From Fimbriimonadaceae bacterium (GTDB taxonomy: Bacteria > Armatimonadota > UBA10988): DNA of 64,000 nt. Shown piece by piece: positions 26,233-39,244 of the stretch (positions are counted from its first letter, which is position 1; every line of letters begins with the position of its first letter). The stretch lies in NCBI GenBank assembly GCA_020850355.1, contig JADZEX010000044.1, forward strand, positions 62,001 to 126,000. The letters are read 5' to 3'. The position numbers were made by a program, and so were the translations under genes. Under the pieces are notes generated by a model, which did not search any database, was not told the DNA's origin, and saw nothing but the letters and a program-made list of their open reading frames with translations.

Positions 26233-27861
26233 ATGGACCGTCGGACTTTCCTAGGCACCTGCGGCGCCAGCGCCGCGCTGGCCGCGGGAGCGGCGCGGGC
26301 CCAGGCGCCGGCGCGGCCGCCGAACATCGTGCTGTTCTACGCCGACGACCTGGACTTCGACGAGGTGCCCGGCTGGGACATGCTGCGGGTACCCTGTTAC
26401 ACCGCCGCGGCGCACGCCAAGGACCCCGCCGTAGCGCCGCCGAAGCTGCACCTGCCGCACTTCGAGCGGCTGCTGCGCGAGGGCCAGGCGATGGATCGCT
26501 GCTACATCAGCAGTCCCGTCTGCACGCCGGCGAGGTACAGCATCCTGACCGGTCGGCAGGCGCAACGCAGCACCTGGTTCCGGCGCAGCAACCCCGACAG
26601 CGGGCCGGCCAACATCATGTGGAACACCCACCTCGACGCCAGCGAGAGCAACATTGCCAAGGCGTTGGGCGCGCTGGGCTATCGCACCGGCATCGTTGGC
26701 AAGTGGCACAACGGCCTGCCCGGCGGCGAGGTCCGTGGTGTCGCCGAGCTGACCGACCCGCGCGACCCGCGGGTCACCGCCGCTTGCCAGGAGGCCCAGG
26801 CCAGACGGGCGAGGTACCTCACGACGCAGATCGGCTGGACTTGGGCCGCGCGCATCCATCATGGCAACAAGGAAGAGGAGAAGATCCCGGCCGCGCTCAA
26901 GGTGCATAACCTGGGCTGGCTGGCCGACGGAGCGGTCGAGTTCCTGACCCAGCGGGACCCGCGACCATTCTTCCTCTACCTGCCGGTGACCATCCCCCAC
27001 GCGCAGTACTTCCCCGGCCTGCTGAAGGACGATCCCTGCGCCTCGGTCGGCGGCTGGCTCGCCGCCGAGCCCCACAGCACGCCGCCCAAGTCGACGGTCG
27101 CAGCGCGCGCCACGGCGGCCGGGGTGGCACCCCGCAACCACGCCGGTACCTGGCTCGACGATTGCCTCGGCGCGGTGCTGCGAACTCTCGACGAGACCGG
27201 CCAGGCCGAGCACACCGTGGTGGTCGTGATCGGCGACCACCAGAGCCGCGGCAAGTACACCTGTACCGAGGCGGCGCGGACGCCGGCCGTGGTGCGCTGG
27301 CCGGGGCGCGTCGCCCCCGGCTCGCGCAACGCCACGCTGATGGCCAACCTGGACCTGCCGGCCACCTTCTGTGAGATCGCCGGCGGGCAGGCGCCCGAGG
27401 ACATGCGCACCGACGGTCGCAGCCTGGTGGAGAGCTGGACCACCGGCCGAACGCCAGCGGGCTGGCGTAGCGAGCTGTTGCTGAGCATCACCACCTGCCG
27501 GGCGGTGGTCTCGGAACGCTGGAAGTACATCGCCGGCCGACCCGACGAGGCGATCCGCGGCAAGTTGCAGGCCGATGCGGCGGCCGCCCAGGCGGCCGGG
27601 CGGGCGCGGACGATCGACTGGTCGGGCCATGCCACCGACCGCCCGCGCGCCGATGGCGGCGGCGTGCGCTACAACGCCGACCTGGACTTCCCGGCCTACT
27701 TCGACGCCGACCAGCTCTACGACCTGCAGGCCGACTTCCTGGAGCAGCGCAACCTGGCCGCCGACCCGGCCTACGCCGCGACCCTGCGCCAACAGCAAGA
27801 GCTGCTGCGGCACCAGTTGGCGAGCCTGCCGCATCCCTTCGGCGAGTTCAAGACGGCCTGA
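26233..27861 (+). CDS. Tat-secreted formylglycine-dependent sulfatase
   Basis: 542 residues. The N-terminus MDRRTFLGTCGASAALAAG is a Tat-type signal. PNIVLFYADDLDFDE carries the metal-binding Asp pair. CTPARYSILTGR is the CxPxR sulfatase signature whose Cys is matured to formylglycine. VVVIGDHQSRGKYTC is the second metal/substrate motif. It probably removes sulfate from a polysaccharide handled by the adjacent hydrolase. No maturase gene is seen in the window. ATG 12 nt after the hydrolase stop, with an AGGAG-type SD. Last gene of the plus-strand sugar operon. Confidence 0.9.
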   Translation: MDRRTFLGTCGASAALAAGAARAQAPARPPNIVLFYADDLDFDEVPGWDMLRVPCYTAAAHAKDPAVAPPKLHLPHFERLLREGQAMDRCYISSPVCTPARYSILTGRQAQRSTWFRRSNPDSGPANIMWNTHLDASESNIAKALGALGYRTGIVGKWHNGLPGGEVRGVAELTDPRDPRVTAACQEAQARRARYLTTQIGWTWAARIHHGNKEEEKIPAALKVHNLGWLADGAVEFLTQRDPRPFFLYLPVTIPHAQYFPGLLKDDPCASVGGWLAAEPHSTPPKSTVAARATAAGVAPRNHAGTWLDDCLGAVLRTLDETGQAEHTVVVVIGDHQSRGKYTCTEAARTPAVVRWPGRVAPGSRNATLMANLDLPATFCEIAGGQAPEDMRTDGRSLVESWTTGRTPAGWRSELLLSITTCRAVVSERWKYIAGRPDEAIRGKLQADAAAAQAAGRARTIDWSGHATDRPRADGGGVRYNADLDFPAYFDADQLYDLQADFLEQRNLAADPAYAATLRQQQELLRHQLASLPHPFGEFKTA

Positions 27862-27872
27862 GCCGCCGCGGG

Positions 27873-29096
27873 CTACGGGGCTTTGACGCTGTCCTGGGCC
27901 ACGTGACAGAGCGCGCACCAGGCTTTGGTGTGGCAGTTCAGGCAGAACGACCGCTCGCTGTGGCTGGCCTCGCCGCGGTGGCCGTCGACGTAGTCGGCGG
28001 GGTGTGGCATCGTGGTACCGTGACAATCACGGCAACTGCTGGCGGTGTGGCAGCGTCCACAAACCTGCGGATCGCGCTGCGCCGCGGCGCCGTGCTGCCG
28101 GCGGAAGGCCGCGGAGTGGGGCATCGCCAGACCGTGGCAGCCGGCGCACTCGGCCTGCTGGTGGCAGCGCGCACAAACCGCCCGATCGCGCCGCGCCGGC
28201 TGGCCGTGGCGACGCTCGAAGTCGGCCGGATGCGGCATCGCCAGCCCGTGGCAGTTCTGGCAGGTTCGGCTGCTGTGGCAAACCGCGCAGCGCTCCGGAT
28301 CCGCTTCGGCGGCCGGCCCGTGGGCGCGCCGGAAGCCGGCCGGGTGCGGATTGCGCGAGCGGTGACAGGCCTGGCAGTCGCCGGCGGCGTGACACTTGCC
28401 ACAGAGCCGCTGGTCACTGTGCCCGTGGGTCGCCTTGAAGTCTGGCGGGTGCGGCAACGTCAGGCCATGGCACTGCGTGCAGCCGGCCGGCTCGTGACAA
28501 GTGGCGCAGACCTTTGGGGTCTCCTTGGCCAACTGGCCGTGGCGGCTGCCGAAGCCGGCGGGGTGGGGCAGTTCCAGGCCGTGGCAGGACTGGCACCAAG
28601 ACGCTTCGTGACAAGTGCGGCAGGTGGCCTGCGCCGAAACGTCGCGGCCGTGGTCCCGGGCGAAACTCGGCCGCTGGTGATTCGTCGGCTTAACCCGCTG
28701 CATCTCGGCGTGACAGGTGCGGCAGTCGGCACTGGCCTGCCGGCCGTCGTGACAGCGTAGACAGCCGCCGGCGATGCCCAAAGTGTGGGGCGCCGTGCCG
28801 GCCGGTAGCGGTTGGTGGTCCCAGGTCCCATGGCACTCGTTGCAGTGCGTGCCCCGCTCGGCGTGCTGGGCGTGGGAGAAGCGGATGCCGCGGGAGCCGT
28901 CGCCCGAGAGGGGGTTGTGGCAGTTGAAGCAGGGCAACCCAACGACGCGCGCCCGACCGGCGCCGGCCACGGCCGCGGTCGGCGCGCTGCGCGGTGCGGC
29001 CGGCGGCGACGGGCGACTACACCCCGCCGACAGCCCCACCAGAATCGTCGCTGTCAGCAGCAGCCAGCGGTGATGCCGCCGGCTGAGGGCTGTCAT
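27873..29096 (-). CDS. 18-heme c-type cytochrome lipoprotein
   Basis: 407 residues with 18 CXXCH motifs. The N-terminus RRHHRWLLLTATILVGLSAGC ends in a lipobox Cys, so an exported lipid-anchored protein is expected. From about residue 165 it consists of repeats of ~40 residues with the pattern CxxCHxxxxCxxCHGLxxPHPAxF and a following HG. The last two motifs are SFCLNCHTKAWCALCH. ATG with GAGG 6 nt upstream; the start overlaps the end of the b561 gene by 80 nt. As the terminal gene of the multiheme operon it is a candidate periplasmic wire or surface cytochrome. No catalytic domain is visible. Confidence 0.88.
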   Translation of the reverse strand: MTALSRRHHRWLLLTATILVGLSAGCSRPSPPAAPRSAPTAAVAGAGRARVVGLPCFNCHNPLSGDGSRGIRFSHAQHAERGTHCNECHGTWDHQPLPAGTAPHTLGIAGGCLRCHDGRQASADCRTCHAEMQRVKPTNHQRPSFARDHGRDVSAQATCRTCHEASWCQSCHGLELPHPAGFGSRHGQLAKETPKVCATCHEPAGCTQCHGLTLPHPPDFKATHGHSDQRLCGKCHAAGDCQACHRSRNPHPAGFRRAHGPAAEADPERCAVCHSSRTCQNCHGLAMPHPADFERRHGQPARRDRAVCARCHQQAECAGCHGLAMPHSAAFRRQHGAAAQRDPQVCGRCHTASSCRDCHGTTMPHPADYVDGHRGEASHSERSFCLNCHTKAWCALCHVAQDSVKAP

Positions 29097-29784
29097 CGTG
29101 CGCCTCGCTCTGCTCGGCAGCCTCGAGTGCCGCCAACTCCTTGGGGTGATGATGCCGCATCTCGGTGGCGCTGAGGGTGCCGCTCAGCCAGAGGCGGTTC
29201 ATTGGGAAGACGTCCCGCCGCAGATGGGCGTGGTACATGTGCCAGATGGCGATCGAAAGGGCTGCCAGAACCGCCTCATAGCCATGCACGACCTTCGCCA
29301 GGTCGATGCCCAGGGCGGTCACCCAGCCTGCCGCGCCGACCGGGAACCAGAGGATGAAGCCCGTCGCGACCATCACGACGCTGCCCCAGACCACGGCCCA
29401 GTACTCGAACTTCTCGATGAAGTTGTAGCGGCCGTAGCGCGGTTCGGGCGCCCGGGGATCGAAGAGCCAGCGGAAGGTGTCCCGGACCTCGACGAGATCC
29501 TCGCGGCTGGGCAGCATGGCCGTGCTCAGTTGCCGGCGGCGCCAGCGACCAAGCAGGTAGACGCAGTGCCAGAGGCTGCAGACGATCAGTCCGACGGCGG
29601 CGATGCGGTGGACCAGGCCGGCCATGCTGGCGCCGCCGAGGTGTTGCGCCAGCACCTGCGAGGTGGCGCTGCCGGCGTACCGCAGGGGCAGGCCGGTCGC
29701 CACCAGCAGGCTGAAGGAGACCATCATCAACTTGTGCTGCCGCACCTGCGAACGATCCCAGCGTTGGTAGCGGCGTTCGCTCAT
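29017..29784 (-). CDS. Cytochrome b561/formate-dehydrogenase-gamma-like membrane cytochrome
   Basis: 255 residues with four transmembrane helices. His residues fit two b hemes: HKLMMVSFSLLVATG, LVHRIAAVGLIVCSLWHCVYLL and VHGYEAVLAALSIAIWHMYHAHL. The last ~50 residues are a soluble Glu/Asp/His-rich tail. Such proteins take electrons from menaquinol or deliver them to it. Start overlaps the stop of the membrane-anchored 7-heme gene by 4 nt (ATGA), so the two products probably form one complex, comparable to the fused diheme-b/multiheme-c CbcL of Geobacter (analogy only). Confidence 0.85.
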   Translation of the reverse strand: MSERRYQRWDRSQVRQHKLMMVSFSLLVATGLPLRYAGSATSQVLAQHLGGASMAGLVHRIAAVGLIVCSLWHCVYLLGRWRRRQLSTAMLPSREDLVEVRDTFRWLFDPRAPEPRYGRYNFIEKFEYWAVVWGSVVMVATGFILWFPVGAAGWVTALGIDLAKVVHGYEAVLAALSIAIWHMYHAHLRRDVFPMNRLWLSGTLSATEMRHHHPKELAALEAAEQSEAHDDSPQPAASPLAAADSDDSGGAVGGV

Positions 29785-30686
29785 GCGTGGCTCCCCGGCG
29801 GGTTCAGCCGGCGGCGGCGGAAGTCGAGCAGCATGTAGCCGAGCATGCCGCCGATGGTGCCGACAATCGCCAGCCGGTAGAACCAGCTCACCCAGAAGAC
29901 CACGGGCGCGGTGGCCGTGGTGGGGACCTGGTGGCTGAAGGCCTGGGCGAACTGCGGCCCCGCTCCGGGGTGGCAGCTCGGCTGGCCGCAGGTCACGGCC
30001 ACCCGGGCGGGATTCACCCGCGACAGCGGGTCCTCGTGGCGGCGGATGTCGTGAGTACCATGGCAGGAGGTACAGACCGCCGCCTCGCGGCTGCCAAGCG
30101 CGGACTTCTCGCCATGGAAGCTGGTCTCGAAAGTCTGCACGACGTTGGTCTGCGCGTTGAAGCTGGCCATCACCGTGGAGTCCGCATGGCAGCGCGCGCA
30201 AGTGGCCGGCACATTGGCCGGATTGGTGGAACTCTCCAGCTCGTCGTGCGGCGTGATGTAGTGGCTGCCATGGCAGTCCTGGCAGAGCGGCACCTGCTGG
30301 TCGCCGGTGGCCGCGGTCTGCGCATGCACCGACTGGACGTAATCGGCCGCCTGGCTGCGGTGGCAACGCACGCAGTTGGCCACCGCGCTGCGGGCGGCCA
30401 GCGAGCGCTCGCGCAGAATGTCGGGCCACGGCTCCGGCAGGTCGGCCACCGGCGGATCGCCGTGCGGGCCCACCCCGAAACCGGCATGGCACTCCAGACA
30501 GCCACGCTTGCCGTGGACACTGCTCGCGAAACGGTTCGCGTCGACGTACCTCGAGCGCACCTGGCCGTCGGGCTCGATCACCGCCAGCTCCCGCGAGCTG
30601 TGACAGACCAGACAGCCGGCATCGCCGGTGGCGGCCGCCAGCCGGCTCCCGATCAGTAGCAGCACCGCCAGCGCTCGCCCGCTCAT
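29781..30686 (-). CDS. Membrane-anchored 7-heme c-type cytochrome
   Basis: 301 residues with an N-terminal signal (ALAVLLLIGSRLAAA). There are six CXXCH motifs and one CX4CH (CGQPSCH). One C-terminal transmembrane helix (residues ~267-290) is followed by FRRRRLNPPG, so the heme domain should face the periplasm. It probably receives electrons from the b561 encoded next. It overlaps both neighbours by 4 nt (ATGA), indicating tight translational coupling. Confidence 0.87.
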   Translation of the reverse strand: MSGRALAVLLLIGSRLAAATGDAGCLVCHSSRELAVIEPDGQVRSRYVDANRFASSVHGKRGCLECHAGFGVGPHGDPPVADLPEPWPDILRERSLAARSAVANCVRCHRSQAADYVQSVHAQTAATGDQQVPLCQDCHGSHYITPHDELESSTNPANVPATCARCHADSTVMASFNAQTNVVQTFETSFHGEKSALGSREAAVCTSCHGTHDIRRHEDPLSRVNPARVAVTCGQPSCHPGAGPQFAQAFSHQVPTTATAPVVFWVSWFYRLAIVGTIGGMLGYMLLDFRRRRLNPPGSHA

Positions 30687-31570
30687 GGCGCCGCCTTCCC
30701 GACCGGCGCGGGCACCGCCTCGTGGCAGAGCTTGCAGTAGGCCTCGTCGTGGCACTTCAGACAGCTAGCCGGCTGCTTCTGGCAGGCCTCCTTGTGCTCG
30801 GTCGCGAAGTCGGGCGGGTGGGGTAGCGGCACCGCGTGGCAGGTGTCGCAGAAGCTCACCTGGTCATGGCACATGCGGCACTCGTCCTGGTGCCCCTTGG
30901 CGTCCCCGCCGTGCTTCAGCTTGAAGCCCGCCCGTCCATGCGATTCCGGCTGCGGGACATCCTCACCGTGGCACTCGCCGCAGCCGGCAGCTTGCGGCAG
31001 TTTCAGGAGATGAGGTTCCCGAGAGCCGTGGAAGGCGTGGCACATGTCGCAGGTCAGGGCCCCGTCGGCCAGCGTGTGGTGGCGCTTCGCCGCCGCCTCG
31101 GCGGCCAGTGTCTGGTGGCACGGCTGGCAGTCCTGGCCTTCCGGGCGGCGCAGCAGCTTGTCGCGCTCCGACTTGCGGTGCACCGCGTGACATTGGTCAC
31201 AGGACACCTTCTGGTCGTGCGGACCAGCCCGCCAGAGCGCCGCCGGCACCTGCTCCTGATGGCAGGCCAGGCAGACCCCGTTGGCCTCGGGCGGCGGCAG
31301 CGTGCGCCAGCGCACAATCTGCTGCCGCTGGCCAAAGCTGTGTGCGCCACCCGGACCGTGGCAGGCCTCACAGCCCCGTTTCTCCGGAGGCAGGCGCTCT
31401 GCCGCCATCGCCTTGCTGTGGTCCAGCGCCGCCCATTGCCGGGCGTAGTCGATGTGGCAGCGCAGACAGACCGCCGTGCCGACATAGGCGGCCGGCGCCG
31501 CGCCGGTCTGCGAACCGGCCACCGCGAGCAGCAACATCAGGGGAAGCCCTGCCTGCCAGACTAGACGCAT
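30683..31570 (-). CDS. Periplasmic 11-heme c-type cytochrome
   Basis: 295 residues with a signal peptide (WQAGLPLMLLLAVAGSQTGA) and 11 CXXCH motifs. The N-terminal part (YVGTAVCLRCH ... KRGCEACHGPGGAH) resembles DmsE-type cytochromes. The C-terminal four motifs (CRMCH, CDTCH with PLPHPPDF, CLKCH, CKLCH) match the repeat module of the 18-heme lipoprotein, suggesting module exchange within the locus. A soluble electron carrier or wire is the simplest role. It starts 41 nt after the 7-heme gene. Confidence 0.87.
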   Translation of the reverse strand: MRLVWQAGLPLMLLLAVAGSQTGAAPAAYVGTAVCLRCHIDYARQWAALDHSKAMAAERLPPEKRGCEACHGPGGAHSFGQRQQIVRWRTLPPPEANGVCLACHQEQVPAALWRAGPHDQKVSCDQCHAVHRKSERDKLLRRPEGQDCQPCHQTLAAEAAAKRHHTLADGALTCDMCHAFHGSREPHLLKLPQAAGCGECHGEDVPQPESHGRAGFKLKHGGDAKGHQDECRMCHDQVSFCDTCHAVPLPHPPDFATEHKEACQKQPASCLKCHDEAYCKLCHEAVPAPVGKAAP

Positions 31571-31610
31571 CGTGCGCTCCAGCGCGCTCGGACCGCAGTC
31601 GCCGCCCGGG

Positions 31611-32567
31611 TCAGCCCTGCGGGACGATCGTCTTGTCGAAGAGGTGCCGTCCATCCGGCATGTGGCAGGTGGCGCAAGTGGCCCCGGCCGGCAACGCGTG
31701 CTTCTTGGCCTTCACATGCTCTTCGATGCTAGGGACCGTCGTCTTGTGACACTGCAGGCAGGTCTCGTTGATCGGCAAGACCAGTTGGTAGGGCTGTGCG
31801 GTGTCGCCATGCGGATCGTGGCACTTCTCGCAGACGACGCCCGCCTGCCAGTGCTTCGGGCTCTGCAGCATCTCCGAGTATTGCTGGTTGCGGCCGGGCT
31901 TGGTCGGCCTGGCGTCGGTGAAGACTTCGGCCAGGTCGGTGTTCAGCCGGTAGCCATGTGGGTAGGCCAGCTTGCCGTCCTTGCTGCGACCCAGGCTGTG
32001 GCACTGTCCACAGCTCGCCGCCTGCAGCGCCGGCGTGAAGCTGCTCGGTATCGCGATGGTCGACTTGCGGTCTTCTTTCTTGGCGGTGTTGTGCTTGCTG
32101 GCCGGGCCGTGACAGCGCTCGCAGCCCACCCCGAACATGCTGTCCTTGAGCTCGCGCGTCTCGGGGTTGAAGCCGGTGGTGTGGCAGCCGAGGCACTCGG
32201 TCACGGCATCGACAGGCTCGTGCGGGAGCCACTTCTTGGCATCGACATCCCAGACGCCCGGAAGCACCTTGAGGTCGGCGTCGAGGTAGGCCTGCTCATG
32301 CCGGCCCGTGGCAAGGACCAGTGTGATCTTGTCCTTCGTGAACGGGGCGTTGGTGAAGTCGGCTTTGATGACCTCATCGGTCGGCTTCAAGATCGCCCGC
32401 GCGTGGGCCGTCTTGGGGTAGGCCGTCACGATTTTGGCATGGTTGGCGCGATGGCAAACGAGGCAGAGGCGGTTCCCGGTGTAGGTCGCCCCATCCACCT
32501 GGCTGTGCGCCGCGACGGCCAGCAAGGCCACGGTGGCAGTCACTGCGACGACACGTGTCAGCTTCAT
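31611..32567 (-). CDS. Periplasmic 7-heme c-type cytochrome
   Basis: 318 residues. Signal peptide VVAVTATVALLAVAAHSQVDG, then seven CXXCH motifs: CLVCH, CLGCH, CERCH, CGQCH, CEKCH, CLQCH and CATCH. The architecture (YTGNRLCLVCHRANH, TECLGCHTTGF, VGCERCHGPASKH) resembles cytochrome c554/hydroxylamine-oxidoreductase-related multiheme proteins, but no enzymatic residue can be assigned. ATG with GGAGG 5 nt upstream. Likely an electron carrier between the inner-membrane module and the outer-membrane conduit. Confidence 0.86.
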   Translation of the reverse strand: MKLTRVVAVTATVALLAVAAHSQVDGATYTGNRLCLVCHRANHAKIVTAYPKTAHARAILKPTDEVIKADFTNAPFTKDKITLVLATGRHEQAYLDADLKVLPGVWDVDAKKWLPHEPVDAVTECLGCHTTGFNPETRELKDSMFGVGCERCHGPASKHNTAKKEDRKSTIAIPSSFTPALQAASCGQCHSLGRSKDGKLAYPHGYRLNTDLAEVFTDARPTKPGRNQQYSEMLQSPKHWQAGVVCEKCHDPHGDTAQPYQLVLPINETCLQCHKTTVPSIEEHVKAKKHALPAGATCATCHMPDGRHLFDKTIVPQG

Positions 32568-32737
32568 CGCGCCCTCCGAAGGCTGTCGCATCTACCGCGC
32601 CGACGAGCAGCCTTCGTCCCGTCGCGCAGGTCCGACCAAAGCAGAGCGCGTTCACCCCGCCGCCGACTTCGGACTTCCTCGCGGGAGTCCTCGTCATCCG
32701 CTGGTTGGACGACGACGGCGGGGCGAACGTGCCAGGA
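32568..32737. other. Intergenic region with 13-bp inverted repeat
   Basis: A 170-nt gap within the multiheme operon. Arms at 32650-32662 and 32716-32728 (GTTCACCCCGCCG and its near reverse complement) could form a long-range hairpin. No gene is seen. It may be a processing or partial termination site. Confidence 0.35.
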
Positions 32738-34333
32738 TCAGAAGGGACTGGCGAAGCTGAAGTTCAGGATGTTCGTATCGTAGCGCAGCCCCGGCAGCAG
32801 CGTGCTGTCGAGGTCCTGCAACTGGTACGTGAACCGCAGCTCGCGCCCTCCACCCAGGGCGGTGGTGAGGCCAGCGTTGACGTAGTGCTGGTCGGTGTCG
32901 TCGCCGTAGTACGATTCGCTGAGGTTGTAATCGGCCCACAGGCGCCATTTCAGCGACGGCTGCCAGGCGATCCCGGCGTGCAGCACCAGGCCGTCGGCAT
33001 CGAGGCCGGTGAGGGTGGCGCTGCTGACGCTGAGGTCCCGGAAGTAGACGTCTCCCGACAGGGAGACCTGCGGGGTCAGGGCGTAGCTGTAGCCGAGGCC
33101 GTAGCTCTGCATCGTCTCGCCGAAGCCGCGCGCTTGCGCCCGGCGGTAGCGGTGCTGGAAGAAGCCGTAGGCCATGCCACTGGGCCCGAGGTTGAGGCTG
33201 CCGCGCATCTTCAGCTTGTGCTCGGTGTCCAGGAACAACGGCCGGGCATCCCCGATCAGCGGCGCGGCGCTGTTGTCGAGGTTGTTGACCGTCTTGAACT
33301 GGTACTCGCCGCTGACCCGCAGGTTGTGCTTCGTGCGGAAGTCTAGCCGGGTCCAGGCCCGGGTCTCGTGAGGCTTCTCGACCGCGCTCTGGATGGCGTT
33401 GTAGCGCTCCAGTTGCTGCCGCTCCAGGCCGCCGCGCCAGGTGATGGTGGTGGACGGCTTCCAGATCAACGACAGCCCGCCACCGAGGCTCTTCGTCACG
33501 TAGGCGTTGGCGGTCGGGCCGAGGTCGATGTCGCGGAGGGTGAAGCGCGCCTCGGTCCAGAGGTTCTTGGCCGGCTGGTAGCTGGCCATCGCACCGGCCT
33601 GGAACAGCTCACTCCCGGCCAGGCCGGGCTGCCGCAGCAGCGTCCACTGCGCCGCGCCGCCGAACAGCCAGCGGCTGCCCAGCACGGCGTGGTAGCTGAT
33701 GTCGTACATCTGGGTCTGCGACGGCAGGCGACCAGCGACGCGCTCGCGGAAGGCCAGCGAGTTGGCCTTCAAACCGAGCACGCCCGGGCCGAGCGGCAAG
33801 TCGAACGAGCCGCCGAACTCCTCGGTCGAGTAGCTGTAGGCGCCTTCCCGGATCTGCGTCGGATGGTTGACCCGCTCCTGCTTGAACCAGGTGCCGACCC
33901 GCGAACCAAGCCCCGGCCGGACCCGCAGGTCGTAGGCCGTGTTGGTCCGCCGGCTGAGCCCCGGCAGCGGCGCCAGCGGTTCGTTGAAGAACATCGCGCG
34001 GTCCCAGGTCGCCCGCAGCATCATCGGCAGGGCCGGGTTCCAGAGGGCCACCATGGCGTCCGAGCGTTCGCCCAGGAAGTCGCGGGTCCAGACGTCGATC
34101 ACGTCGTAACCCTTCGGCGTCCGCAGGTCGAAGCGCTCGATGTCCAGGGTCACCCCGGTCCACGGGGCGACGTACTGGCCGGCCCGGGGACGGAAGCCGT
34201 CGGTGCCCTGCAGGCGCCAACCCAGCGTGACCACCGCGGCGGCCTCGGGCGGCGCCGTGATCACCGGTTTCTCAGCCGCCATCACGGGTGCGACGGTGAT
34301 CACCGCCAGCAGCCAAGGCAGTTTTGCTCGCAT
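32738..34333 (-). CDS. Outer-membrane beta-barrel protein, probable MtrB/PioB-like porin
   Basis: 531 residues. A signal peptide (LPWLLAVITVAPVMAA) is followed by alternating amphipathic strands rich in aromatic girdle residues. The C-terminus NFSFASPF ends in Phe, the usual BAM signal. It is immediately downstream (11 nt) of the MtrA-like decaheme gene, the order seen in porin-cytochrome conduits. It is shorter than Shewanella MtrB (~680-700) and lacks its N-terminal CXXC, so homology is inferred from context and fold. It should sheath the decaheme protein across the outer membrane. ATG with AGGAGG 7 nt upstream. Confidence 0.75.
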   Translation of the reverse strand: MRAKLPWLLAVITVAPVMAAEKPVITAPPEAAAVVTLGWRLQGTDGFRPRAGQYVAPWTGVTLDIERFDLRTPKGYDVIDVWTRDFLGERSDAMVALWNPALPMMLRATWDRAMFFNEPLAPLPGLSRRTNTAYDLRVRPGLGSRVGTWFKQERVNHPTQIREGAYSYSTEEFGGSFDLPLGPGVLGLKANSLAFRERVAGRLPSQTQMYDISYHAVLGSRWLFGGAAQWTLLRQPGLAGSELFQAGAMASYQPAKNLWTEARFTLRDIDLGPTANAYVTKSLGGGLSLIWKPSTTITWRGGLERQQLERYNAIQSAVEKPHETRAWTRLDFRTKHNLRVSGEYQFKTVNNLDNSAAPLIGDARPLFLDTEHKLKMRGSLNLGPSGMAYGFFQHRYRRAQARGFGETMQSYGLGYSYALTPQVSLSGDVYFRDLSVSSATLTGLDADGLVLHAGIAWQPSLKWRLWADYNLSESYYGDDTDQHYVNAGLTTALGGGRELRFTYQLQDLDSTLLPGLRYDTNILNFSFASPF

Positions 34334-34344
34334 CACGGCACCTC

Positions 34345-35241
34345 CTACTGGATCAACAGCCGGTTGACGTTGGAGCCATGCAGACGGCTGTGGCAGCCGG
34401 CCTGGTAGCAGCTTCCGGCGCGCGGCAGGTGCGCCGGGTCCGCGGCGATGTCGCCATGGCACTGCAGGCAGATGGCGTTGCCGAACATCTCACCGAGCTT
34501 CGGATTCGGCGAACCGTGCGGCCGGTGGCAGGTCATGCAACCCTCATCACCGGTGCCGGTGCTGGTGGCGTGCTCGAACACGAACGGCCCGCGCTTCTCC
34601 AGATGGCAGCGCACGCAACTGTCGTTGCCCGCCTTCAGCAAGGCGCCCGCGCCGGCGCCCGCCTGGTGCGGGTCGTGGCAGTCGGAGCAGTCCATCCGCT
34701 TTTCGAGCACCGGGTGGTGCGAGTTCATCCGGAACTCTGCCGCCTGGTCCGGATGGCAGCTCAAGCACAGCTCATTGGTGCGGTTCTTGAGCATGTACGG
34801 GCCCTTCGGCTCGTTGTGGGTGTCATGGCACCCGCCACAGCCCAGGCCAGCCTTGGCGTGCGACGTGTTGAGCCACAATGGCGCCTTGATGTCGGTGCCG
34901 TGGCAGGCCAGGCAACTGCGCACCGCCGGCAGCCCGACCATGGTCTTGAGGTGCCGGATGTTGCGGAACTCCGGGTCCTCCAAGTGTTTGCTGCCCGGCC
35001 CGTGGCAGCCCTCGCAACCGCGTTGTTCGGGCGGCAGCTTCTCGCTCTGCAGGTTGGCGTTGTGCCGGGTGGTGCCCCACGCCGGCGCATATTGCGCATG
35101 GCACTCCAGGCAGGTCTCACTGCCGACCGGCTGGGCCGCCTCCGCCTCGTCTCCCTGCACCGGCCGCGGGCCCAGCAGGGGCACCAGCGATGCCAGCGTC
35201 ACCGCGAGAGCCACGCCTCCGACACGACACACCGGCCTCAT
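34345..35241 (-). CDS. MtrA/DmsE-like decaheme c-type cytochrome
   Basis: 298 residues with a signal peptide, nine CXXCH motifs and one CX4CH (CYQAGCH). Length and layout match the DmsE/MtrA family: QPVGSETCLECHAQY near the start, RGCEGCHGPGSKH, and a C-terminal CHSRLHGSN close to the family's terminal CHxxxHGSN. MtrA-type proteins sit inside an outer-membrane barrel and pass electrons across it. Start overlaps the ccmF stop by 4 nt (ATGA), and the barrel gene follows 11 nt later. Confidence 0.88.
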   Translation of the reverse strand: MRPVCRVGGVALAVTLASLVPLLGPRPVQGDEAEAAQPVGSETCLECHAQYAPAWGTTRHNANLQSEKLPPEQRGCEGCHGPGSKHLEDPEFRNIRHLKTMVGLPAVRSCLACHGTDIKAPLWLNTSHAKAGLGCGGCHDTHNEPKGPYMLKNRTNELCLSCHPDQAAEFRMNSHHPVLEKRMDCSDCHDPHQAGAGAGALLKAGNDSCVRCHLEKRGPFVFEHATSTGTGDEGCMTCHRPHGSPNPKLGEMFGNAICLQCHGDIAADPAHLPRAGSCYQAGCHSRLHGSNVNRLLIQ

Positions 35242-37421
35242 CGTGCGTTTCCTTTCGTGCCCGTCCCTTGTGTCCGCTCGGCGTTCCACCGACCACCCAG
35301 CGCCAACGCCCCACCCAGCAGGGCCAGCACCGTACCCACCCAGACCAGGGCAATCCCTGGCTTCCAGGTTACCTTCAGCACCAGTTGCAGCCCCTCCGGT
35401 TGCCCTGGTGGTGTGACCGTCACCCGCACCTGACCCTTGGTCGCCCCATGCCCGGGCATGATCTGCGTGACCCGCAGCGCATGGCCGTTGACCGTCTCGG
35501 GAGGGCTCTCGAACTCACCCTCGCCCTTGACCACGAACCGCGGCGTCACGTGGACGCTGTGGCCCGGCCACTCGGCCCGCAGCTTCGCGCCGACCGACAT
35601 GTCGCCGGCGCCGCTGCCATGGGTGCCCATTTCGAAGCTCACGAACTGCAGCCGCAGCCCACCCACGACCTTCGACTCACCCTTCGTGAGCACCGCTTCC
35701 AGCCCGCCGCCACCCTCTTCGACCTGGTCGGGCTCCAGGTAGAGGTCGCCCGTCAGGCGGTGGAAGATGGTCGGGTGGCGCATCACGCCCATGCTGGTCT
35801 CGTAGACCAGCGCGGTGCCCTGGCGCTCGCCGTGGGCCAGGGTCAGGGCCAGTTTGCCGTCCGGCAAGGTCGCCGACTCGACGAATCGCGCCTCGCCGCC
35901 GATCTGCTCCAGCGCGGCAGCGCGGCCCTCGGTCAACTGCACCGTGTCGACCCGCTGCCCGGCGCCGCTGTAGATCGCCCCGACGGCCAGCAGCGCCATC
36001 CCAAGGTGGGCCAGCCCGGCGCCGGCCTCAGGCCAGCGGCGGCCCAGCCAGCCGCGCCGCAGCCTGGTGCCAGCGGTGGCGGCCATCGCGCCGCAACTGG
36101 CCGCCACCAAGAGCAGCCCAATCCGGTCGCGGAGCGCCGGCAGTGCGCCCAGCAGACCGCCGGCCAGGCCAGCCGCCAGGGCCGCGGCGACACTGACCAA
36201 GACCACCTGCCGCTTGCCACGGGGCGGCAGCAGCAAGACCAGCAGCAGGCCGGCGAGGCCCAGACAGGCGCTCTGGGTCTGGTTGTAGAAGCCCTGCTGC
36301 ACCGCGCTGGGTTCGCCCAGCAGCTTGGTCACCAGTGGCGCCGAGGTGCCGCCGAGGACCAGCAGGGCCATCAGAATCAGCAGCCAGGTGGCCTGCGCCA
36401 GGCGCTCCAGATTGGCCGGCACGCCCGGTCGCTGGGAGCTCCGGCGGACCGTCCAAAGGAGGCCCAGGGCCGCCCCGACCGGCATCAGCACGAGGCCCAG
36501 CCAGACCGAGTTGACCTGCGTCCCGAGGCTCTCGAAGCTGTGCACCGAGAAGTCGCCGAGGACGCCGCTGCGGGTCAGGTAGGAGCCGTAGATCACAGTC
36601 GCGAAACTGAGCAGGGCCAGCACGTAGTTGGCCATCCGGAAGGCGCCGCAGCGGCGTTGCAGCAGGCAGCCGTGGAGCAGCGCGGTGGCGAACAGCCAGG
36701 GGATCAGCGAGGAGTTCTCCACTGGATCCCAGGCCCAGAAGCCGCCCCAGCCGAGGGTGATGTAGGCCCAGTACCCGCCGAGCATCATGCCGGCGCCGAG
36801 CAGCACCCAGCCCGCCAGCAGCCAGGGCCGCGCCACGTCCAGCCAGCCGTCGGGCTCGCGCCGGGCGAAGGCGCTGACGGCCCAGGCGAACGGCACGGTC
36901 AGCAGGGCGTAACCGGCGAACAGCACGGGCGGATGGATGATCATCCAGGGGTTGCGCAACAGCGGGTTGAGGCCGTGACCGTCGTCGGGCAGGCTGCCGC
37001 TGACCAGCGCGTAAGGACTGCGCACCAGCAGCAGCGCTCCGAAGCCGGTCAGGACCGCTGCCAACACGACGGTCGCCCCGCGGGCGCCGGGGCGCTGCGG
37101 ATCCCAGATGGCGGCCGCCACCACAAACAGCAGGAAGGTCCACAGCAGGACCGTGCCCTCCTGCCCGGCCCACAAGGCCGCCACGCGATAGGCGGTCGGC
37201 AGATCCCGCGAGCTGTGTCGCACGACATAGTCGATCGCGAAATCGTGCTGCAGCAGGCCGCGCCACAGCAGCCCCATCGCGGTGGCCGCCAACAAGGTCC
37301 CGCTCACCAGCGCGGGTCGCAACCAGGCGCGGCGGTTGAACAGCCCTGCCAGCAGCGCCACCAGCGCGCAGCCCAGCAGTGCCGCCAAGAGCCAATCCGC
37401 AGCCGGACGATCCGAAGTCAT
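35238..37421 (-). CDS. ccmF: Cytochrome c biogenesis protein CcmF (heme lyase subunit)
   Basis: 727 residues with many transmembrane helices. It carries the heme-handling WWD motif WGGFWAWDPVENSS and conserved HSSRDLPTAYRVAALWAGQEG, followed by a C-terminal periplasmic beta-rich domain. CcmF attaches heme to CXXCH apocytochromes in the periplasm (system I). It heads the multiheme operon and is coupled to the decaheme gene, which suggests dedicated maturation capacity for the 62 heme sites. No other ccm gene is in the window. ATG with GGAGG ~13 nt and GAG closer upstream. Confidence 0.9.
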   Translation of the reverse strand: MTSDRPAADWLLAALLGCALVALLAGLFNRRAWLRPALVSGTLLAATAMGLLWRGLLQHDFAIDYVVRHSSRDLPTAYRVAALWAGQEGTVLLWTFLLFVVAAAIWDPQRPGARGATVVLAAVLTGFGALLLVRSPYALVSGSLPDDGHGLNPLLRNPWMIIHPPVLFAGYALLTVPFAWAVSAFARREPDGWLDVARPWLLAGWVLLGAGMMLGGYWAYITLGWGGFWAWDPVENSSLIPWLFATALLHGCLLQRRCGAFRMANYVLALLSFATVIYGSYLTRSGVLGDFSVHSFESLGTQVNSVWLGLVLMPVGAALGLLWTVRRSSQRPGVPANLERLAQATWLLILMALLVLGGTSAPLVTKLLGEPSAVQQGFYNQTQSACLGLAGLLLVLLLPPRGKRQVVLVSVAAALAAGLAGGLLGALPALRDRIGLLLVAASCGAMAATAGTRLRRGWLGRRWPEAGAGLAHLGMALLAVGAIYSGAGQRVDTVQLTEGRAAALEQIGGEARFVESATLPDGKLALTLAHGERQGTALVYETSMGVMRHPTIFHRLTGDLYLEPDQVEEGGGGLEAVLTKGESKVVGGLRLQFVSFEMGTHGSGAGDMSVGAKLRAEWPGHSVHVTPRFVVKGEGEFESPPETVNGHALRVTQIMPGHGATKGQVRVTVTPPGQPEGLQLVLKVTWKPGIALVWVGTVLALLGGALALGGRWNAERTQGTGTKGNAR

Positions 37422-37924
37422 ACCCAGCGCTCCTCCAGGATGGCGCCGTCAGCGTTCCCCGCGCTCCGGCGTCCGCCACAGGCCGTGCCCATCTGGCGCG
37501 GCGACTGGTCTGGGTACTGCAACATTGCTGCCCGAAAACCACCCCGGCTGCCTGTCGGCAGGCCCTGGCGGACGAGCCGGGCGTCCGCCCCCAAGGCGCC
37601 TGCGCGGCAGTCGCCCGAACTACGCGGGCCGGTACGCGGGTACCTTGTCGGGTATCTCGGCAGCCAGGCGACGTATTTGCCGCCGCTGATACGAGCGGGG
37701 GCCATGACACTGGCGCCGGAGAGTCCCAAACACGGGGCACATGGAGAGCGCCGTGGGGCGCGCCGCGGGCCGGGCCGGTCGCTCCAAGCGCTGCCGCGAG
37801 GGCGTGGCAACAGCTTTGCAGAACCACCCTGCACTTGGCGTCCGGTGGCGTGGCGGCTGAAGGCCAGGAGGCTGGCGGCGCGTCGCGGACCGACGGGGAG
37901 ACTGCGGTGGTGAGGAGGCGAGCC
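37422..37924. other. Divergent control region of the multiheme locus
   Basis: 503 nt separate the divergent ccmF operon and the 9-heme lipoprotein gene. No protein fits it and no c-di-GMP, cobalamin or other riboswitch core was recognised. A near-palindrome CAACATTGCTG lies around 37520. No good sigma-70 promoter was found on either strand, so promoters may use another sigma factor or an activator. Confidence 0.4.
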
Positions 37925-39244
37925 ATGCTCGGCGGTCGACGATCCACGGTGATCGCGGTAGCAGCCATTTCGGGGCTCTTGGCGATCGGCTGTGGCAGCA
38001 GTAATGCCGGCGGTGGTGGAGGCGGTGGCGCGACGCGCGCAACCTATGTGGGCGCCGAGGTCTGCCGCGGCTGCCATGCGGAGTTGTTCGAGCACTGGGA
38101 GGGCACCGGCCATGCCGAGGCACTCGCCAGCTTGCAGGCGATCGGGCAGGGCGGCAACACGCGCTGCTTGGGTTGCCATACGACCGGGATGGGCCAGCCC
38201 GGTGGGTTCACCAGTGCCACGGAGACCGCCAACCTGGTGGACGTGCAGTGCGAAAGCTGCCACGGCCCGGCTGGCGAGCACGTCGGCAATCCGGAAGGCG
38301 TCGACTTGCCGGTGGCCATAGACAGCGCCGTCTGCGGCTCCTGCCACGTCGGCGCGCACCATCCGCAGTTCACCGAGTATGAGCAGTCGGTGCACTCAGT
38401 CTCGAAGCGGCACGGGGAGTCGAGCTGCCTGCCGTGCCACACGGCCGAAGGGTATGTCGATCGGCTGAACGGCCCAGGCCCGGTTGAGGAGCCCGCGGAC
38501 CGCCAGGTCGACGGCGAGGGCGAAGCGGCCACCACCGATACCGAGTGCTGGGCCTGCCACAACCCGCACCAGCGCCGCGACGACGCACCATCGCAGTTGC
38601 GCAAGCCGGCCGCGGAGCTGTGCCGCGATTGTCACACCTTCCGTGACGAGCGCGGCGTGCCGGGCACACGGGTGCACAAGCCGCAGGGTGAGGTGCTCAA
38701 TGCGACCGGCGCCTACGACTGGAATGGCACCACCTACGTGCCGCTCAGTCTGCCGGCCGGCAGTTCGACCCACGCCACCGCTACGGGCGGGGACTGCGCT
38801 GTCTGCCACGTCTACCAGGTACCGAACTCCACCATCACCGAGGCCAGCCCGCTGGTGACGGGGCACCTCTTCCTGCCCAACCTCAACGCCTGCGACGACG
38901 CCGGCTGTCACACGGACCTCGCCGCAGCGCGGCGACAAGAGGGTGAGGCGCCGGTGGTGATCGAAGATGGCAACATCGCCGAGGGCGCCAGCCAGGCGGT
39001 GATCGACTACGTCAACGCCACCAAGGCCGCCACGGTGACGCGCCTGCGGGCCATCAAGTCCAAGCTGGACAAGGTCAACCTGACCGCGCTGACCGTGCCG
39101 CAGAAGACGCAGTACGACATCGCCAAGTGGAACTACGACGTCGCCTTCAACGACGACAGCGACGGCTGCCACAACCTCGACTACGTCAACCTGATGCTCG
39201 ACGTAGCCGACCGGTTGGTGACGCCGCTGCCGCGCCGGCCATAG
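37925..39244 (+). CDS. 9-heme c-type cytochrome lipoprotein
   Basis: 439 residues. The signal AVAAISGLLAIGCGSS has a lipobox Cys and is followed by a Gly-rich linker. There are eight CXXCH motifs and one CX4CH (CDDAGCH). The last ~120 residues have no heme motifs and look helical. The lipid anchor, flexible Gly linker and position divergent from the conduit operon make it a candidate cell-surface terminal cytochrome, analogous to MtrC or OmcB in role but not visibly homologous. ATG has GAGGAGG 6 nt upstream. A strong terminator follows. Confidence 0.86.
   Translation: MLGGRRSTVIAVAAISGLLAIGCGSSNAGGGGGGGATRATYVGAEVCRGCHAELFEHWEGTGHAEALASLQAIGQGGNTRCLGCHTTGMGQPGGFTSATETANLVDVQCESCHGPAGEHVGNPEGVDLPVAIDSAVCGSCHVGAHHPQFTEYEQSVHSVSKRHGESSCLPCHTAEGYVDRLNGPGPVEEPADRQVDGEGEAATTDTECWACHNPHQRRDDAPSQLRKPAAELCRDCHTFRDERGVPGTRVHKPQGEVLNATGAYDWNGTTYVPLSLPAGSSTHATATGGDCAVCHVYQVPNSTITEASPLVTGHLFLPNLNACDDAGCHTDLAAARRQEGEAPVVIEDGNIAEGASQAVIDYVNATKAATVTRLRAIKSKLDKVNLTALTVPQKTQYDIAKWNYDVAFNDDSDGCHNLDYVNLMLDVADRLVTPLPRRP

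Follow-up and report, generated by a model that had tools for sequence, protein, structure and literature searches.

In extracellular respiration, the way in which electrons get across the periplasm is still debated, whether by diffusing shuttles, by contacts between proteins or along a continuous wire. The stretch of DNA analysed here (the window), 64,000 nucleotides from a Fimbriimonadaceae bacterium of the Armatimonadota, leads to the same question, for it encodes a protein, P0001, in which 18 heme motifs follow one another in a single chain: what does such a string of hemes do, and in which part of the cell? Our reading, to which we give a probability of roughly 60%, is that P0001 is a covalent heme cable of the periplasm, laid between a CbcL-type menaquinol oxidase and an MtrAB-like conduit. 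The string of hemes is probably a built-in cable that carries respiratory electrons outward from the inner membrane; we infer both the geometry of this cable and its location in the cell. The gene and its repeat are placed as follows.

27873..29096, minus strand: 18-heme wire protein P0001, with a lipobox-like N-terminus, one heme motif and a c7-like part, and seven CX2CHX4CX2CH pairs
27903..28700, minus strand: two-heme repeat region of P0001 (residues 133-398), seven units with their preceding linkers

The ORF runs from 29096 to 27873 on the minus strand and encodes 407 amino acids. It contains exactly 18 CXXCH motifs, the number given in a preliminary description of the locus, starting at residues 56, 85, 112, 125, 159, 168, 197, 206, 232, 241, 270, 279, 308, 317, 346, 355, 385 and 394. 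The chain opens with a hydrophobic stretch closed by C26, the sole non-heme Cys, which is followed by the heme motif at C56, the c7-like part and the seven close pairs. While the first four motifs lie outside the two-heme repeat, those from residue 159 onwards are arranged in seven pairs whose two motifs start 9 residues apart, at pair-to-pair distances of 38, 35, 38, 38, 38 and 39. Between the pairs lie six full linkers of the form PHPAxF...HG, each with two spare His eight residues apart. The tandem two-heme unit and its linker had thus been recognized in the preliminary description, whereas its figure of about six repeats has to be replaced by seven units and six full linkers. The repeat part is very dense, with about 19 residues per heme, and 21 other His follow the first heme, to be compared with 18 hemes in the whole protein.

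The repeats align beyond their heme motifs, contrary to the first outcome that the preliminary description had named as a refutation. When units 2-7 of P0001 were compared with the CXXCH motifs and linker His masked, 137 of 415 non-ligand positions were identical (33%), and the mean unit-pair score was 23.2 against -14.4 (s.d. 1.9) for 500 shuffles, none of which reached 23.2. The same unit recurs in relatives of the same phylum, from which 46 repeat-bearing ORFs, P0001 included, were extracted on the criterion of four or more close pairs; three of them are cut by contig ends, and all were read from stop to stop, some N-termini being too long. Their heme counts are 8 in one cut ORF and then 10 up to 32. 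Exactly four residues separate the motifs in 329 of the 368 close pairs, 290 of 322 repeat periods measure 35-43 residues, and every one of the 307 linkers shorter than 50 residues holds at least two His, which are 8 or 9 apart in 294 of them. Spacing and linker His together fit a self-contained unit of two hemes, with presumed bis-His ligation.

The nearest homologues, at loci L041 and L042, have seven pairs and 18 hemes as P0001 does, with 49 and 46% identity to it, and a third, at L043, shares 48% in an ORF cut by a contig end. Units of P0001 find their best match in the same-numbered unit in 5 of 7 cases for L041, 5 of 7 for L042 and 3 of 7 for L043, which indicates that much of the duplication predates the wire family. 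In an alignment of 11 members (A3), most differences in length amount to whole units, and with the counts over the 46 ORFs the repeat number is seen to vary between relatives by whole two-heme units. Array length changes between families while much of the array is older. There is therefore good support for P0001 as a heme array that arose by internal duplication and is probably linear, and such growth, as suggested for it earlier, agrees with both the similarity of the units and the gain or loss of whole units between homologues. A scan of genome contigs for relatives gave one weak match, an open frame of Actinomycetota (L040; 2406 aa, 45 CXXCH, no close pairs), and none was found in the viral contigs scanned.

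Known families and structures account for the front of the protein. P0001 matches no NCBIfam family at 0.001 or at 0.01, and none of the Pfam and NCBIfam matches is a family specific to the repeat region; a literature search over titles and the beginnings of abstracts found no published description of the two-heme repeat. The c7-like stretch falls in a PF14522 match in the Pfam search, and a family profile run against the PDB aligned the N-terminal stretch of the wire family with c7/PpcA structures. With the same profile, the best partial match of the repeats is a nine-heme cytochrome c (E 0.002, first units only), and no solved relative of the later two-heme units appeared at E up to 0.01. 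AlphaFold2 on the single P0001 sequence gave a mean pLDDT of 37.9, too low to inform on the fold. A heme-dense, repetitive chain also brings to mind the extracellular filaments of the OmcS/OmcE/OmcZ sort, into which P0001 chains would polymerise, and the preliminary description had proposed a search for such similarity; however, the PDB returned no filament cytochrome, either for the single sequence (E up to 1) or for the family profile (up to 0.01), and relatives bear anchors and fusions to inner-membrane heads, as described below. We consider polymerisation most improbable.

The wire gene is the last of a run of co-directional genes, mostly overlapping or abutting, that extends on the minus strand from 37421 to 27873 and presumably forms one operon. 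Its order is CcmF, DmsE-type decaheme, barrel candidate, c554-like cytochrome, DmsE-like cytochrome with 11 CXXCH, multiheme c with TM, cytochrome b and wire. Read backwards from the wire, with a divergent ORF at the far end, the genes are:

29017..29784, minus strand: cytochrome b of the b561/FDH-gamma type, b half of a split CbcL-like oxidase (PF01292 over cut-off)
29781..30755, minus strand: c half of the split CbcL-like oxidase, a multiheme cytochrome whose C-terminus carries a TM (6 CXXCH + CX4CH)
30683..31654, minus strand: DmsE-like cytochrome with 11 CXXCH (TIGR03508 at 106.8 bits, below cut-off)
31611..32591, minus strand: c554-like cytochrome with 7 CXXCH (PF13435 over cut-off)
32738..34462, minus strand: weak candidate for an MtrB-like outer-membrane barrel, GSU2204-like (NF041027 at 31.4 bits, cut-off 350)
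34345..35289, minus strand: DmsE/MtrA-type decaheme cytochrome (TIGR03508 at 200.1 bits, cut-off 192.2)
35238..37421, minus strand: CcmF/NrfE-type heme lyase (PF01578 over cut-off)
37379..39244, plus strand: divergent c554-like ORF with 8 CXXCH, possible outer cytochrome of the conduit

The cytochrome b also matches TIGR01583, below cut-off. In its multiheme partner the CX4CH occupies residues 256-262, where relatives have CX2CH or CX4CH, and the listed start of this gene is probably too far upstream. The decaheme cytochrome has 9 CXXCH and one CX4CH in its sequence; the barrel candidate, positioned after it, matched no Pfam family. The wire-type unit also occurs singly in the window, since the C-terminus of the 11-CXXCH cytochrome, with two close pairs, ends in one such unit. 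Downstream of the wire, a convergent ORF (26233-27861, plus strand) looks by eye like a secreted sulfatase.

The most constant neighbour of the repeat is the CbcL-like quinol oxidase of the inner membrane. A b or c gene of this pair is present in 18 of the 20 loci of a first set, the two others, L052 and L057, being contigs of 3.2 and 3.1 kb, and in 14 of the 19 wire loci of a second set (the match in L084 is weak), the loci without it being L070, L071, L073, L079 and L083; the twentieth locus of this set, L067, was chosen for its cytochrome b and not for a wire. The c and b genes form one ORF in L046, L047, L049, L050, L051, L056, L059 and L060, and likewise in L068, L074, L076, L077, L080, L081 and L082; PF01292 and c-type families are found within one ORF in L050 and L051 and are split in the window. 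A multiheme c part fused to a b-type membrane part is the layout of CbcL, as described in PMC9129911 and PMC6295460. In L069 and L072 a single wire is preceded by a tandem arrangement of two c parts and two b parts from CbcL-like oxidases.

Across the 291 genomes of the phylum that were swept, the wire is matched at 1e-15 in at least 49 (at least 30 of the 194 good genomes) and the cytochrome b at 1e-20 in 86, both being matched in at least 43, raw counts that ignore kinship. Wire and b lie within 10 kb on one contig in 38 of the 49 wire genomes and within 1.5 kb in 32, kinship again being ignored. Three observations count against a cable fed by this oxidase: 43 of the 86 cytochrome b genomes have no wire among the matches listed, six wire genomes have no cytochrome b match, and in genome G250 (L067) the 16 kb that were read contain a close split oxidase and no wire.

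How the array is held in the cell can be approached through its N-termini. That of P0001, MTALSRRHHRWLLLTATILVGLSAGC, passes as a lipoprotein signal under the broad lipobox rule of PROSITE, whereas a stricter pattern gave no flag. Judged from its sequence, what looks like a lipoprotein anchor would be silent on which membrane, or which face, it holds. As read from alignment A3, a Cys follows the hydrophobic stretch in 6 of the 11 members, and the other 5 have signal-anchor-like N-termini without Cys; in L041 and L042 the Cys follows a residue that would be out of the ordinary in a lipobox. Members of A3 continue from the N-terminal anchor into a heme motif and the c7-like part, and L053, L055 and L070 have an anchor without a visible c7-like part.

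Besides these lipoprotein or signal-anchor starts, the repeat occurs in two other N-terminal contexts. In one, it follows a single TM helix and a NapC/NirT-like multiheme part, PF03264 passing its cut-off in L044 and L065:14634-17006 and not in L065:3557-5659 or L071:953-2509, further members being assigned by eye. In the other, the head consists of a cytochrome b/b6 and a monoheme c, both ORFs tested, L060 and L083, containing PF00033 and PF00034, and L060 also matching cytochrome b6 chains in the PDB; here too the remaining members were assigned by eye. NapC/NirT-like and cytochrome b/b6 heads are presumably inner-membrane proteins, as their known families are, which places the repeats of those relatives in the periplasm. 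A single locus, L065 (G251:C66:28000-47000), holds three repeat wires (20, 26 and 32 hemes), three cytochrome b genes and several multiheme c genes within 19 kb.

A periplasmic array could also be an electron store, a capacitor rather than a path, and many hemes in one chain would suit such a role, which is stated for GSU1996 in PMC10138318. The constant linkage or fusion to quinol oxidases and the membrane anchors nevertheless favour a fixed path, and storage and conduction are not mutually exclusive; we hold a P0001 that stores and does not conduct to be quite improbable. From the heads it is tempting to generalise, tentatively and with more doubt than conviction, that the two-heme unit, ~38 residues long, serves as a plug-in element of heme cables and, in up to 13 pairs and behind three kinds of quinol-oxidising head (anchors adjacent to CbcL-like oxidases, NapC/NirT, cytochrome b/b6-c), would provide covalent periplasmic wires of their own lengths, replacing diffusing shuttle cytochromes within one phylum.

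What the cable would lead to is suggested by the other end of the gene run. In L044, one strand carries a DmsE-like cytochrome (just below cut-off), a barrel candidate, a lipoprotein-type cytochrome, the c part, the b part and a 32-heme wire with a TM/NapC-like head. Close to the wire, MtrB-like barrel matches are rare among relatives: blastp gave one in L044 only, to which two fused ORFs are added. These, L050:2297-5326 and L048:15854-18796 (1010 and 981 aa), hold an over-cut-off DmsE-type decaheme followed by a GSU2204-like barrel match and are apparent MtrA-MtrB fusions, with cytochrome and porin in one chain. The linkage and fusion to quinol-oxidising heads and the over-cut-off DmsE decaheme of the run support the cable reading; the rarity of barrel matches near the wire and the weak one of the window itself count against it.

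The same decaheme and barrel candidate would accommodate a P0001 placed outside the outer membrane, lipid-anchored there as the terminal cytochrome of an MtrAB-like conduit in the stead of MtrC/OmcA, and its lipobox-like start points the same way. Yet P0001 has no MtrC/OmcA match (TIGR03507, PF22113; at 0.001), close homologues carry the signal-anchor-like N-termini without Cys, relatives fuse the repeat to inner-membrane heads, and a better candidate for the outer position lies beside the conduit: the lipoprotein-type multiheme ORF 37379-39244, which would begin with a lipoprotein signal (LLAIGC) if started at an internal Met and whose homologue sits inside the co-directional run in L044. We regard this outer placement as unlikely. 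With an inner-membrane oxidase as the most constant neighbour, five of 11 anchors without Cys and those fusions, the earlier suggestion of a surface or polymer-forming protein is probably wrong.

If P0001 is the periplasmic cable that we favour, each unit of ~38 residues would hold two c hemes and contribute two spare His, so that all hemes may be bis-His and packed in file. The adjacent CbcL-like pair would oxidise menaquinol and load the wire via its multiheme c part, and the wire would hand electrons outward to the DmsE-type decaheme in the MtrB-like barrel, which would amount to extracellular electron transfer; flow might also be reversed along the same path, for electron uptake. The step from heme to heme in known cytochromes is ~9-12 Å, at which a file of 18 could reach across some 16-20 nm, a distance comparable to the width of a periplasm. 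In relatives, the cable would differ in its number of units and in the quinol-oxidising head that bears it. The interest of the family lies in this natural variation of both unit number and head between genomes: with a countable unit, varying numbers of it and fusions to oxidases, distance, rate and unit number become testable against each other.

For the phylum of the host, Acidobacteriota was considered and dropped after a 16S signature for it matched 0 of 121 genomes; the genome of the window gave no 16S match. In MAGs of the Armatimonadota, both MtoAB-like genes and multiheme cytochromes carrying at least six motifs are already on record (PMC9671151), and such genes are therefore not new in this phylum; the repeat family of P0001 is not described in the portion consulted of that report. 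Among known systems, MtrAB/MtoAB conduits resemble the window in that an over-cut-off DmsE/MtrA-type decaheme adjoins a barrel candidate, and differ in that the barrel match of the window is weak and that such a wire is not known to be part of these conduits. CbcL/MtoC/MtrH have the same two parts as the neighbouring c and b genes, which are one ORF in many relatives (CbcL/MtoC/MtrH in PMC9129911 and PMC6295460), whereas the genes of the window are split and a separate heme wire follows; the likeness described here is one of layout. With c7 cytochromes of the PpcA type the wire family shares its N-terminal stretch, through PF14522 and the structures matched, but the match is limited to the part before the repeats.

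Closest in working are the periplasmic nanowires of hemes of Geobacter sulfurreducens, which are likewise monomeric many-heme chains of repeated domains. According to PMC10138318, they comprise GSU1996 and GSU0592 (12 hemes each) and GSU2210 (27 hemes), the hemes of GSU1996 form a linear, crescent-shaped file, and the repeated unit of this type is a c7 domain of three hemes, one of them His-Met. Membership of P0001 in the GSU1996 family was considered and rejected, as TIGR04257 (nanowire_3heme) does not match it at 0.01, nor anything in genome G000; the same model matches 5 of the 11 homologues, at best with 3.5e-8. Where the Geobacter unit is a three-heme c7 domain, that of P0001 has two hemes in 38 residues and two spare His, and these two linker His for every two hemes suggest that all of its hemes may be bis-His.
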